Shown here: positions 8,772 through 56,581 of the stretch, one piece after another
How the letters are laid out: each line of letters begins with the position of its first letter
Position numbering within the stretch: the stretch's first letter is position 1
DNA from: Oscillospiraceae bacterium
GTDB taxonomy: Bacteria; Bacillota; Clostridia; Oscillospirales; Oscillospiraceae
Reading direction: 5' to 3'
NCBI GenBank assembly: GCA_902798545.1
Contig: CADBWQ010000025.1
Span: 26,378-90,377 of the forward strand
DNA length: 64,000 bases
The notes under the pieces: model-generated
Seen by the model: only the letters and a program-made list of their open reading frames with translations
Database searches by the model: none
Told to the model about the DNA's origin: nothing
Program-made: the position numbers and the translations under genes

Positions 8772-8800
8772 TTGTATTTCACTTTCTTTTCGTGTATTAT
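8772..8800 (+). promoter_or_regulatory. Promoter of structured RNA copy A
   Basis: TTGTAT, 17-bp spacer, TATTAT; transcription would begin near 8807. The preceding 240 bases upstream of the kinase gene hold no gene that I can see. Confidence 0.65.
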
Positions 8801-8988
8801 GTAGACACTGAAAGAAACCAATCAATGAGTGGGGTTGAAAGGTTCACCGCTGAGGATCAAAAAAGAAAGTACTCCACAATCAGGTCTGTCCCACCTAACG
8901 GGAATTGCGCGAGTCGCAGATATTGTGTTATGGGTGTTTCGAGTGTTTGATTCAGCGGTTTTAATATAAAGAAAGCGGAGGTTAAAAG

Positions 8989-9018
8989 ATGTTAGATACC
9001 AAGAATTTAAAGAAGTAA
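8989..9018 (+). CDS. 9-codon mini-ORF MLDTKNLKK in RNA copy A
   Basis: ATG preceded at 6 bp by a full GGAGGT ribosome binding site; the stop codon lies inside the terminator stem. Copy B has MLDTKNSEK at the same place. Five of nine codons are identical, two changes are synonymous (ACC/ACG, AAG/AAA) and two are not. It may be a leader or signalling peptide, or a conserved RNA segment that only looks coding. Confidence 0.4.
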   Translation: MLDTKNLKK

Positions 9019-9060
9019 GTCCTGATTGTGTCTCAACTGTCAGGACTTACTTCTTTTTTT
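9009..9060 (+). terminator. Intrinsic terminator of RNA copy A
   Basis: Perfect 17-bp stem (9009-9025 with 9040-9056) followed by an uninterrupted T-run. It includes the stop codon of the mini-ORF. Confidence 0.9.
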
Positions 9061-9084
9061 CGTGTTTTTTATTCTGAACCGGGG

Positions 9085-9106
9085 CCTGCTGTGAAGCAGG
9101 TTTTTT
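9085..9106 (+). terminator. Second, short terminator after RNA copy A
   Basis: CCTGC-TGTGAA-GCAGG followed by six T, nested in an outer AACCGGGG/CCCCGGTT pairing (9077-9120). Copy B also has a second GC-rich hairpin plus T7 downstream of its main terminator. Confidence 0.7.
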
Positions 9107-53255: not shown

Positions 53256-53284
53256 TTGCACAGAAGCATTTTTTCCTGTATGAT
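53256..53284 (+). promoter_or_regulatory. Promoter of structured RNA copy B
   Basis: TTGCAC, 17-bp spacer, TATGAT; transcription would start near 53291. Its distance to the RNA's conserved elements is the same as in copy A. Confidence 0.65.
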
Positions 53285-53490
53285 ATAGCCAGAAACAAAA
53301 GGAGTCCGAACTTCCTAATCACTCGGCAAAGTGGGGTCGGGTGAGCTCCATTGGGGATCATGTTTGCGAAGCACTCCAACACAAAGGGGATCTCACTTAC
53401 GAGATATGCGCGAGCCGCAGTTGATGATGTTTGAGAGATGATTCAGAAACGGACACAATGGGGACGATCAGAAGAAAGAGAGGTCTAAAG

Positions 53491-53520
53491 ATGTTAGATA
53501 CGAAAAATTCAGAGAAGTAA
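53491..53520 (+). CDS. 9-codon mini-ORF MLDTKNSEK in RNA copy B
   Basis: Same position as the mini-ORF of copy A, with a GAGAGGT site upstream and the stop codon in the terminator stem. Coding status uncertain. Confidence 0.4.
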   Translation: MLDTKNSEK

Positions 53521-53568
53521 GCCCTGATTGTGAGAATGGATGTTGCAGTCAGGGCTTGCTTCTTTTTT
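53513..53568 (+). terminator. Intrinsic terminator of RNA copy B
   Basis: 15-bp stem (53513-53527 with 53549-53563) with one T-G pair, then a T-run. Confidence 0.88.
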
Positions 53569-53658
53569 ATCTGCTGTTTCTTTTGTTCCGCTCCCTGACA
53601 CAAGCTTTGCCGATACCATCCGGTTCTGTCTTCCCCTTATCATTATAAGATTAATACG

Positions 53659-53679
53659 CCGCCGGAGGGCGGTTTTTTT
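53659..53679 (+). terminator. Second terminator after RNA copy B
   Basis: CCGCC-GGAG-GGCGG followed by seven T. Mirrors the second terminator of copy A, although nothing but the RNA lies upstream on this strand. Confidence 0.8.
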
Positions 53680-53737: not shown

Positions 53738-53923
53738 TTAATAGTAACGCTTATTTTTATTCTTGCGCGCAGCTTCTGATTTCTTGCGGCGTTTTACGCT
53801 GGGGCTCTGGTAATATTCCTTCTTGCGCAGATCGGCCAATACACCGGACTTCGCGCAGCTGCGTTTGAATCTCTTCAACGCATTGTCCAGAGACTCGTTC
53901 TCCTTCACGTAAATTTCAGACAC
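53738..53923 (-). CDS. rpsU: 30S ribosomal protein S21
   Basis: A 61-aa protein [20 protein letters not shown] followed by the basic [18 protein letters not shown] tail, diagnostic of S21. The start is GTG, preceded by GGAGGG; the longer frame would run into the leader hairpins. S21 stabilises mRNA-16S pairing in initiation. It has its own perfect consensus promoter and a structured leader, so it is expressed independently of leuS upstream on the same strand. Confidence 0.95.
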
Positions 53924-53942
53924 TGATTTCCCTCCCTCCAAC

Positions 53943-53977
53943 ACGTCCGAAGACGTTTCAAGGGCCAACAACTTGGC
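53943..53977 (-). promoter_or_regulatory. Two hairpins in the rpsU 5' leader
   Basis: ACGTC-TTCG-GACGT (UUCG tetraloop, 53943-53956) adjoins the ribosome binding site, and GCCAA-GTTG-TTGGC (53964-53977) precedes it. They may mediate feedback by S21, as leaders of many ribosomal protein genes do; this is inference. Confidence 0.45.
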
Positions 53978-54021: not shown

Positions 54022-56529
54022 TCAGTTTGCTTTTTTAAGAATCAGATTGATGATTCTGTTCTTGACCACGATGGTCTTCACGAGTTCCATCCCGGCCATC
54101 TGGCGCTGGATCTTTTCATCGGCAAGCGCGGCGGCGATGATGCTTTCCTCATCGGCATCGTTCGCGACAACGATCGTGCTGCGGAGCTTGCCATTGACCT
54201 GGACGGCCATTTCGTGCTCGGCATCGATGGTCTTCTTTTCGTCATACTCCGGCCAGGACATCTGCATTGCCATTTTGCCCTCAGAGGCGGCAAAGCCGGT
54301 CTGCTCCCACATCTCCTCTGCGAGGTGCGGTGCGAAGGGGCTCAGCATCAGGATCAGGGGTTTCAGATCGCCCTTGGTGCAGCCGTTGGTATAGTATGCG
54401 TTGACAAGGGTCATCAGCGCAGCGATAGCGGTATTCATCTTGAGCTCGAGGATGTCATCGCCGACCTTCTTAATGGTCTTGTGGATGAGCGCTTCGTTTT
54501 TCGGCGTTACAGTCTGATCATCCTTCATCAGCTCCAGAAGATTCCAGCAGCGGTCCAGGAAGCGTTTGGATCCCTTTACGGCTTCGTCAGACCATGTTGC
54601 CGTCTTTTCGAAGTCACCGATGAACATGATATAGACGCGCATGGTATCCGTACCGTATTCCCTGATGACGTCGTCGGGATTCACCACATTGCCGAGGGAC
54701 TTGGACATCTTGACAGAGGTACGCAGAGCCTCATTGCCATAGTGATCAATCAGAGCCTGCTTCTCCTCCTCAGTCTCGGCGTAGCCGACATAGTGAGGAT
54801 TGCGTCCGAGGATCATACCGTGGGAAGTGCGCTTTGCATAGGGTTCTTTGGTGTGTACCACGCCGATATCATAGAGGAACTTGTGCCAGAAGCGGCTGTA
54901 CAGCAGGTGCAGCGTGGTGTGCTCCATGCCGCCGTTGTACCAGTCGACCGGGCCCCAGTATTCCTCGGCCTCCCTGGAGAAGGGCGCCTCGTCGTTGTTC
55001 GGATCCATATAGCGCAGATAGTACCAGCAGGATCCGGCCCAGTTGGGCATGGTGTCGGTCTCGCGCTTGGCCGGCCCGCCGCACTTCGGGCAGGTGGTGT
55101 TGACCCAGTCGGTCATCTTGGCCAGGGGGCTCTCACCGTCATCGGTCGGCTCATAGCTCTCGACGTTGGGCAGAACCAGCGGCAGCTCACTCTCGTCCAG
55201 CGGGACCCAGCCGCACTTTTCGCAGTTTACAAGGGGGATCGGCTCGCCCCAGTAGCGCTGACGGGAAAAGACCCAGTCGCGCAGCTTGTAATTGACCTTT
55301 TCCTTACCGAAGCCCTGTTCCACAACATACTTCTTCATGGCAGGAATCGCCTCGCGGACGGTCATGCCGTTCAGGAATCCGGAGTTCACCATGACGGCGC
55401 TGTCGTCCTTCGCGACAAAGGCTTCTTTGCTGACATCGCCGCCGCTGACGACTTCGATGATCGGAAGCCCGAACTTGGTCGCGAACTCCCAGTCACGCTG
55501 ATCATGGCCCGGCACGCCCATAACAATTCCGGTGCCGTATCCCATGAGGACATAGTCCGATACAAACATCGGGACACTCTCGCCGTTCACGGGATTGATG
55601 ACTTCAATTCCCTGCAGGCGGACGCCGGTCTTTTCCTTGTTCAGCTCGCCGCGCTCGAAGTCGGACTTCTTGGCAGCGGCAGCCTGATAAGCGGCAACCT
55701 CGCTCCAGTTCTGAATACGGTCTTTCCACTTCTCCAGCAGAGGATGCTCCGGAGAGATGACCATGTAGCTTACACCATAGAGTGTATCCGCACGGGTGGT
55801 GTAAACCGTGACCTCGTCCGGGGTGTTGGTCTTAAAGGTCACCTCGCAGCCGGTGGAACGGCCGATCCAGTTCTTTTGCTGGATCTTGACGCGCTCGATA
55901 TAATCCAGATCGTCCAGATCGTCGATCAGGCGGTCGGCATACTTCGTGATGCGGAGCATCCACTGGCTCTTTTCCTTGCGGACGACTTCACCGCCGCAGC
56001 GCTCACACACGCCGTCGACGACCTCCTCGTTGGCGAGACCGACCTTGCAGCTGGTACACCAGTTGATGGGCATGGTTGTCTTGTAGGCAAGACCGTTCTT
56101 GAACATCTGCAGGAAGATCCACTGGGTCCACTTGTAATAGCTGGGGTCAGAAGTATTGACCACACGGTCCCAGTCAAATCCATAACCCAGCATCTTGAGC
56201 TGGCGGGTAAAGTTTGCGATGTTGTCTCTTGTGACGATGGAGGGGTGAATATGATTCTTGATCGCGAAGTTCTCCGTCGGCAGGCCGAAGGCGTCATAAC
56301 CGATGGGGAAAATCACGTTATAACCGTCCATGCGCTTCTTGCGCGTAATGATGTCCATTGCGGTAAATGGACGCGGATGGCCGACATGCAGACCGGCAGC
56401 ACTCGGATACGGGAACTCAATCAGTCCGTAGAACTTGGGTCTGGGGTCGCCGGTAATGGCAGCGTAAGGTTTGGTCTCTTCCCATCTGTCCTGCCATTTC
56501 TTTTCAATGGCAGCAAAATCGTATTTCAT
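54022..56529 (-). CDS. leuS: Leucyl-tRNA synthetase
   Basis: A class Ia synthetase of about 835 aa. HIGH-type motif GLHVGHP, CP1 editing domain with [13 protein letters not shown], zinc-type Cys pairs (CTSC, CERC; later CEKC and CPKC), and KMSKS in [22 protein letters not shown] is the usual LeuRS start and is preferred over a Met three codons earlier. The editing motif has Gly where many LeuRSs have Ala. Last gene of the smc operon, 40-odd bp after rsfS, with a small GC hairpin between. Confidence 0.96.
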
Positions 56530-56581
56530 TTTATACATGCACCTCTGTTATGAAAGATATGATAGGATCGGAAGCCCCTTA

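Follow-up and report, generated by a model that had tools for sequence, protein, structure and literature searches.

Two paralogous transcription units in the 64,000-nucleotide stretch of Oscillospiraceae bacterium DNA analysed here (the window) each carry a putative nine-codon open reading frame (ORF), and comparison of homologs shows amino-acid-level constraint on this apparent ORF at codons 2 and 5. With about even confidence, we propose that each element is a free-standing nonapeptide gene with a fast-evolving structured leader and regulated or stabilised expression, the peptide being its likeliest output. The parts of such a gene would be a promoter, a structured 5′ leader, a split Shine-Dalgarno, a nine-codon ORF of the form M-L-D-[TIN]-K-x-x-x-K and a terminator. 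More tentatively, the elements could form a class of minimal genes, each with its own promoter, an evolvable leader, a dedicated ribosome site and a stop-encoding terminator, in which the peptide would be the functional product. If this is true, few conserved free-standing protein-coding genes would be as small. The elements would be kept by nearly every species sampled in one genus, and also by several families of the class; a near-universal nonapeptide gene in a genus would widen what counts as a gene. Nine-codon genes sit at or under the lower limit of small-protein catalogs and are missed by routine annotation. The global smORF catalog (PMC11364881) takes ORFs of at least 30 nt, encoding 9 to 99 amino acids.

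Paralogous units and their nine-codon reading frame

A first-pass annotation of the window had described two related RNAs, copy A (8807–9060) and copy B (53291–53568), and both were found where it had placed them. The evidence bears out a description of them as paralogous, free-standing transcription units that are structured, show compensatory changes and lack an evident cis target. Their promoter-like elements, judged by eye, indeed share a spacing: −35 TTGTAT (8772) and −10 TATTAT (8795) in copy A (8772–8800, plus strand, as are all features of A and B below), and −35 TTGCAC (53256) and −10 TATGAT (53279) in copy B (53256–53284), with a 17-nt gap in each. A consensus promoter scan left the promoter of A unreported and gave the −10 of B with a −35 one base further on and a 16-nt gap. 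In a pairwise alignment of A and B, the 3′ block is the best-conserved part, above the folded part. The annotation had recognised the conservation of this block but overlooked an ORF with its own Shine-Dalgarno inside it. The mini-ORF encodes MLDTKNLKK in copy A (8989–9018; AUG UUA GAU ACC AAG AAU UUA AAG AAG UAA) and MLDTKNSEK in copy B (53491–53520; AUG UUA GAU ACG AAA AAU UCA GAG AAG UAA), and in both it ends in TAA and overlaps a terminator. A third copy elsewhere in the genome, on a different contig (G000:C3:309046–309171, minus strand), reads MLDIKNSEK.

Homologs were collected by BLAST, by pattern and with R1, a covariance model of the 3′ module trained on 72 sequences. Since the sets of 144 and 192 units analysed below retain only frames starting ML[DE]xK, the frame and terminator tests were redone without this filter, and the coding claim is based on unfiltered own-genus codon counts together with the unfiltered frame test. 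For this purpose, 60 of 92 own-genus R1 matches were fetched and read without a peptide filter. The ORF (ATG-Leu-Asp-x-Lys plus a stop) is kept at 59 of these 60 loci, with nine codons in 52 and eight in seven; the exception (L188) has TGG at the stop position. No replacements occur at codons 2, 3 and 5. Leu2 is written TTA (41), CTA (14), CTT (2), TTG (1) and CTC (1), Lys5 is AAG (47) or AAA (12), and Thr4 uses all four codons. Asp3 is GAT in all 59, so some nucleotide-level constraint is also present.

The frame comparison used 48 distinct nine-codon sequences from the unfiltered loci. Among single-base codon differences at codons 2–6, the synonymous share is 75% in the ORF frame (frame 0), compared with 12% and 33% in frames +1 and +2, figures to be read as contrasts between frames and not as probabilities, because the pairwise comparisons are non-independent. 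Stop codons fall within none of the 48 sequences in the ORF frame, compared with 45 and 27 of them in the other two frames. The frame-0 synonymous signal stems from codons 2 and 5; synonymous and replacement differences number 318 and 247 at codon 4, 235 and 231 at codon 6, 138 and 174 at codon 7, and 0 and 470 at codon 8. The filtered version of the test gave 0.74, 0.09 and 0.30. A wider set of 141 sequences gave 58%, 12% and 33%, with a bias at codons 2–3, since loci L035–L150 were fetched by a pattern containing ATGTTAGATA.

Across the 192 distinct units, 171 have nine codons, closed by TAA (77), TGA (71) or TAG (23). Counted from the AUG with frame ignored, the first [CG]CC past +18 lies at 30 nt in 141 of 184 units, at 29 nt in 21 and at 27 nt in 18; the 29-nt spacing fits TAG followed by CC. 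An in-frame ATGATG start occurs in 53 of the 192, which makes a one-residue-longer form (MMLD) possible. In addition, 50 of the 192 (63 by a looser pattern; for example L131, L149, L018 and L031) have another mini-ORF module close to the 5′ end of the RNA, most commonly of the form AGAAAGGGTGATACC-N-ATG TAC x stop, giving MYR, MYN, MYI or MYK before the stop. The leader of this second module, too, is similar to the complement of the 16S tail.

Ribosome site and the terminator holding the stop codon

The ribosome site is a split Shine-Dalgarno, GAAAG-A-GAGGT, in copy B (53474–53484), where it is the sole exact GAAAGNGAGGT match in the window, and a bulge variant of it, GAAAG-CG-GAGGT, in copy A (8971–8982). 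The form GAAAG-N0–3-GAGG[TC] is found in 186 of 192 units, and its spacer is a single A in 154. An exact 16S-tail pattern had no match in 20 genomes; a shorter one matched two of six, of which one is a single-contig module carrier whose matching site proved to be 16S. In this same-family carrier, the 3′ end of the 16S rRNA, GGATCACCTCCTTTCT, is complementary to the split Shine-Dalgarno. The consensus site pairs with this tail at −15.8 kcal/mol, compared with −9.2 for GAGGU alone and −12.5 for plain AGGAGG, and the mean over the 192 units is −14.7 kcal/mol vs −7.0 for shuffled sequences. Folding showed neither clear exposure nor clear masking of the Shine-Dalgarno (mean unpaired 0.51 vs 0.44 upstream; 90 of 192 units), so gating by the leader has no computed support.

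The tandem terminators attributed to both copies were recovered. The main intrinsic terminators fold at −30.2 kcal/mol in copy A (9009–9057) and −35.5 kcal/mol in copy B (53511–53566), and in each the 5′ arm comprises codons 8 and 9 and the stop. A terminator scan, which accepts loops of 3–8 only, left these two unreported and found the second hairpins, at 9081–9104 in A (seen in folding as well) and 53658–53673 in B. The 13 positions made up of the final codon, the stop and the seven bases after them were compared with the 3′ arm at the 59 unfiltered loci. All 13 pair at 51 loci, 12 at seven and 11 at one, whereas the same region reaches 7 to 11 of 13 when the downstream sequence is shuffled. 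A covariation test required a recognisable 3′ arm, which 133 of the 144 units have; removal of near-duplicates left 94, and 72 of those were aligned. In the resulting 16-pair helix, 97.8% of cells are paired, a value inflated by the selection of the 72 units, and 15 of the 16 pairs show changes on both sides (0/500 shuffles). Pairing falls to 27–53% when the partner is slid out of register, and exchange between TGA and TAA is accompanied by a compensating change in the 3′ arm. Comparison thus shows the apparent stop codon to sit in a covarying terminator stem. Separately, 37 of the 192 units (for example L176, L183, L195 and L200) have GGTGAAAGA immediately after the ORF, where the loop of the terminator lies.

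Leader folds and distribution of the family

Upstream of the shared block, the first pass had proposed four helices common to both copies, with sequence replaced and pairing kept. The long-range stem P2 is formed by ACCGCTGA (8846–8853) and TCAGCGGT (8952–8959) in copy A (8846–8959) and by CTCCATTG (53346–53353) and CAATGGGG (53456–53463) in copy B (53346–53463), and covariation among homologs agrees with this replacement. Hairpin P3 changes from TCCC/GGGA (8889–8903) to ATCTC/GAGAT with the loop ACTTAC (53390–53405); the compensatory change is real, and P3 covaries among homologs. P1 is a short CAA/TTG hairpin in A (8823–8837), longer and covarying in other members, and CACTCGG/TCGGGTG in B (53320–53343), where folding also finds it. 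P4, TGCG/CGCA in both (8906–8918 and 53407–53419), is conserved with almost no covariation. Double changes therefore back P1, P2 and P3 of the four, and P4 is backed by its conservation.

These helices were examined in a MAFFT alignment of 12 window-type leaders, which is free of structure fitting but whose members were picked by eye (13 were aligned, 14 listed and 12 used; L089, which has no similar leader, and L016 and L158, of a different class, were omitted). Hand-placed helices, having been chosen to pair, were excluded from the evidence. The four nested helices have 79.7% of cells paired vs 73.9% after shuffling (0/500), a covariation score of 0.246 vs 0.151 (0/500) and 10 pairs with double changes vs 5.8 (7/500); no excess is seen in the number of further pair types (24 vs 22.1; 105/500). 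When 21 homologs were fitted to a leader model, a procedure that biases the test towards the structure, 87.3% of cells were paired vs 78.1% (0/500), with double changes at 8 of 8 pairs in P1, 6 of 7 in P2, 4 of 5 in P3 and none of 4 in P4. RNAalifold on these 21 sequences recovered P2, P3 and two P4 pairs, the latter in a shifted register with double changes in one and two sequences. Covariation of P1, P2 and P3 is hence retained in both sets of homologs.

The pseudoknot that a crossing helix (GGGGT/ACTCC) had been thought to create is unsupported. Its pairing is 69.5% vs 68.0% shuffled (165/500) in the 12 sequences and 70.2% vs 68.6% (111/500) in the 21, and 14 of the latter cannot form one of the five pairs. 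An alternative loop–loop pairing, AAGUG/CACUU, reached 80.0% vs 77.3% (65/500) and is likewise unsupported.

BLAST with copy A matched 19 of 60 genomes, its own included, all of the same genus, and the 26 loci obtained (L009–L034) all have this short frame behind very different upstream sequences. When each species was represented by a single genome, a pattern scan returned at least 116 stretches; the 80 matches listed carry mostly Oscillospiraceae, Ruminococcaceae or Clostridia names and come mainly from gut and rumen metagenome-assembled genomes, and at least three pattern loci (L041, L057 and L081) are chance starts of longer genes. A covariance-model search of Clostridia relatives, which the first-pass annotation had suggested, found homologs to be widespread. 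At E values up to 1e-3, R1 matched 57 of the 61 genomes sampled from the genus, with 23 of 24 near-complete ones positive, and 72 of 394 genomes in the order sample, from 36 of 169 genera and, by our own count, 11 families. At E values up to 1e-5, it matched 14 of 291 genomes in the class sample, own included, and one of 299 in the phylum sample, the genome of the window. Strongly changed relatives could escape R1, because 52 of its 72 training sequences came through the pattern fixing ATGTTAGATA. Positive genomes of the genus mostly have one to three matches and at most seven, one of which is an opposite-strand echo; raw counts run slightly above copy numbers, since R1 weakly matches the opposite strand of its own terminators (for example in G032, G079 and G391). 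Tandem pairs of units some 440 to 900 bases apart were seen at L026, L082, L093, L105, L112, L114, L125 and L138, and between the paired units of L125 and L138 lies an ORF of 221–231 amino acids without a Pfam match.

A leader-only covariance model (R2), built from the 12 window-type leaders, matched 35 of 102 genomes of the genus at E values up to 0.01. The 21 matches of at least 74 bits comprise the 12 training members, chosen with a mini-ORF behind them, and nine new ones; in all 13 cases fetched (these nine and four weaker matches), the R1 module and an MLD ORF lie directly behind the leader. Across the family, leaders range from about 40–60 nt, lengths that depend on promoters placed by visual inspection or with a simple score, up to a 200-nt fold. 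Because the other leaders differ or are very short, the common 3′ gene has several kinds of leader, of which the window-type fold is one. Comparison shows a family widespread in gut bacteria whose leader varies in sequence and size and is predicted to be folded in the window class. An RCYT-type-loop hairpin closed by C–G recurs in 35 of the 192 otherwise dissimilar leaders vs a shuffled mean of 1.6 (for example at 53390–53405), and a small subclass (L017, L029 and L034) has self-complementary TGTACA-type elements at both leader ends and a seven-codon ORF.

These leaders bear on the reading of the elements as trans-acting structured RNAs, in which the 5′ domain would be the effector, by target pairing or protein binding, and the mini-ORF and ribosome site would stabilise the RNA or couple it to ribosomes. 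In favour of this reading, P1, P2 and P3 evolve by compensatory change in leaders of the window type, an RCYT-type-loop hairpin recurs, and downstream orientation shows no cis target. We nonetheless judge it unlikely, because it omits the best-conserved part, which evolves as a nine-codon reading frame. Moreover, the amino-acid-level constraint on codons 2 and 5 exceeds the need of a mere stabiliser, and in some members the 5′ domain is down to some tens of nucleotides with the ORF module retained.

Proposed function, genomic context and related systems

In the proposed nonapeptide gene, the split Shine-Dalgarno would load 30S subunits efficiently, a nonapeptide would be made from the mini-ORF, and the leader would set the amount of its translation or the lifetime of the RNA. 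From the geometry, a ribosome at the stop codon would cover the 5′ arm of the terminator, so translation and termination (or 3′-end protection) may compete. The overlap of stop codon and terminator would offer a testable case of competition between translation and termination with no regulated downstream gene. The peptide appears the most likely output because Leu2 and Lys5 drift only synonymously. What counts against this reading is that peptide positions 4 and 6–8 are loose, which is unusual for a receptor-bound peptide.

The same looseness would fit an element whose output is the act of translation, a ribosome or translation-state sensor or decoy in which loading of one or two mini-ORFs and terminator melting report ribosome supply or sequester initiating ribosomes, with peptide identity counting only through decoding or release kinetics. 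The extended split Shine-Dalgarno, the second, AUG-UAC-x-stop type module in 50 of 192 members and the stop codon locked into the terminator point the same way. A codon-specific sensor is, however, argued against by the interchange of synonymous codons at Leu2, Thr4 and Lys5, no downstream gene is there to receive read-through, and the Shine-Dalgarno duplex is only moderately above plain AGGAGG (−15.8 vs −12.5 kcal/mol). Such an output seems to us improbable.

A short ORF overlapping a terminator is also the usual anatomy of translation-coupled attenuation. That the elements are leader-peptide attenuators of a downstream gene is very improbable and largely refuted by orientation. The nearest downstream ORF, located with a simple ORF caller in 126 of 144 units, is on the same strand in 63 and on the opposite strand in 63 (a further count gave 47 and 57), and the commonest downstream Pfam family occurs in only 3 of 91 proteins. 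Likewise, neither window copy is followed by an evident same-strand gene and both face convergent genes, in agreement with the earlier view that they precede no gene to be regulated in cis. No neighbour family is held in common on either side, the upstream maximum being 4 of 82 proteins, and the 25 Pfam families listed per side are diverse. The elements thus resemble attenuators in having a short ORF and a terminator expected to exclude each other, but differ in that downstream genes are no more often on the same strand than on the opposite one.

Descent from raiA (ModT) RNA, which the first pass had named as a candidate for these clostridial, structured, free-standing RNAs of about 250 nt, can be set aside almost entirely, as RF03072 had no match in the window at the gathering threshold (101.3 bits), on A or B at E values up to 10, or among 20 homologous loci at E values up to 0.05. 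In a genome search, RF03072 matched 0 of 30 relatives, but also 0 of 14 control genomes. The raiA motif/ModT RNA is described as noncoding, with a core of about 215 nt plus a terminator (PMC11706538); it is likewise a free-standing structured Clostridia RNA, but the invariant part of the nonapeptide family is the mini-ORF. The proposed Rfam 15 search gave no gathering-level match in the window except two tRNAs. At lax E values, the best matches came from terminator hairpins, which were similar to microRNA models and to a model of an antisense RNA, and we rejected them; on the 20 homologous loci, only microRNA-like hairpins matched, all below their cut-offs. Searches of open-licence PMC papers, including searches with peptide strings, showed no earlier description of the nonapeptide family. 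Candidate structured RNAs from human microbiomes are reported in PMC8040213, with possible overlap with small genes for 99 of them, and an unnamed entry among the candidates may overlap this family.

Few-codon ORFs that act through a peptide or its translation include SIP of streptococci, a leaderless peptide signal, and the lambda bar minigenes. The proposed nonapeptide genes are alike in that a few-codon ORF would directly give a peptide or its translation; unlike SIP, a hydrophobic peptide acting together with a neighbouring receptor, their peptides are hydrophilic and their neighbours share no common family. The Stab-SD elements of Bacillus have a Shine-Dalgarno-like sequence near the RNA 5′ end, as does part of the present family, whose better conserved ribosome site is, in contrast, at the 3′ end and starts an ORF. 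SgrS/SgrT, RNAIII and SR1 are dual-function small RNAs. Like these, the present transcripts are small, combine structure with a short ORF and have no cis target; they differ in having mostly nine codons, a stop within the terminator, a leader unconserved family-wide and no known pairing target. Their ORF appears translated by its evolutionary signature. A further dual-function small RNA, VcdRP, has a 29-amino-acid protein (PMC8672173).

A mobile-element or phage RNA was considered and rejected, as no enrichment was seen on phages, plasmids or beside mobility genes; phage and plasmid records held nothing similar to copy A at E values up to 1e-3, and the exact pattern occurs in two viral-contig stretches. 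The gene divergent from copy B has a relative (58% identical over 161 residues) that is also divergent beside the module in L027, which suggests inheritance of the putative gene in place while its leader sequence was replaced. On the other side of copy B, the convergent ORF facing it (53738–53971, minus strand) looks by eye like ribosomal protein S21, and leucyl-tRNA synthetase (54022–56538, minus strand) is next after it.
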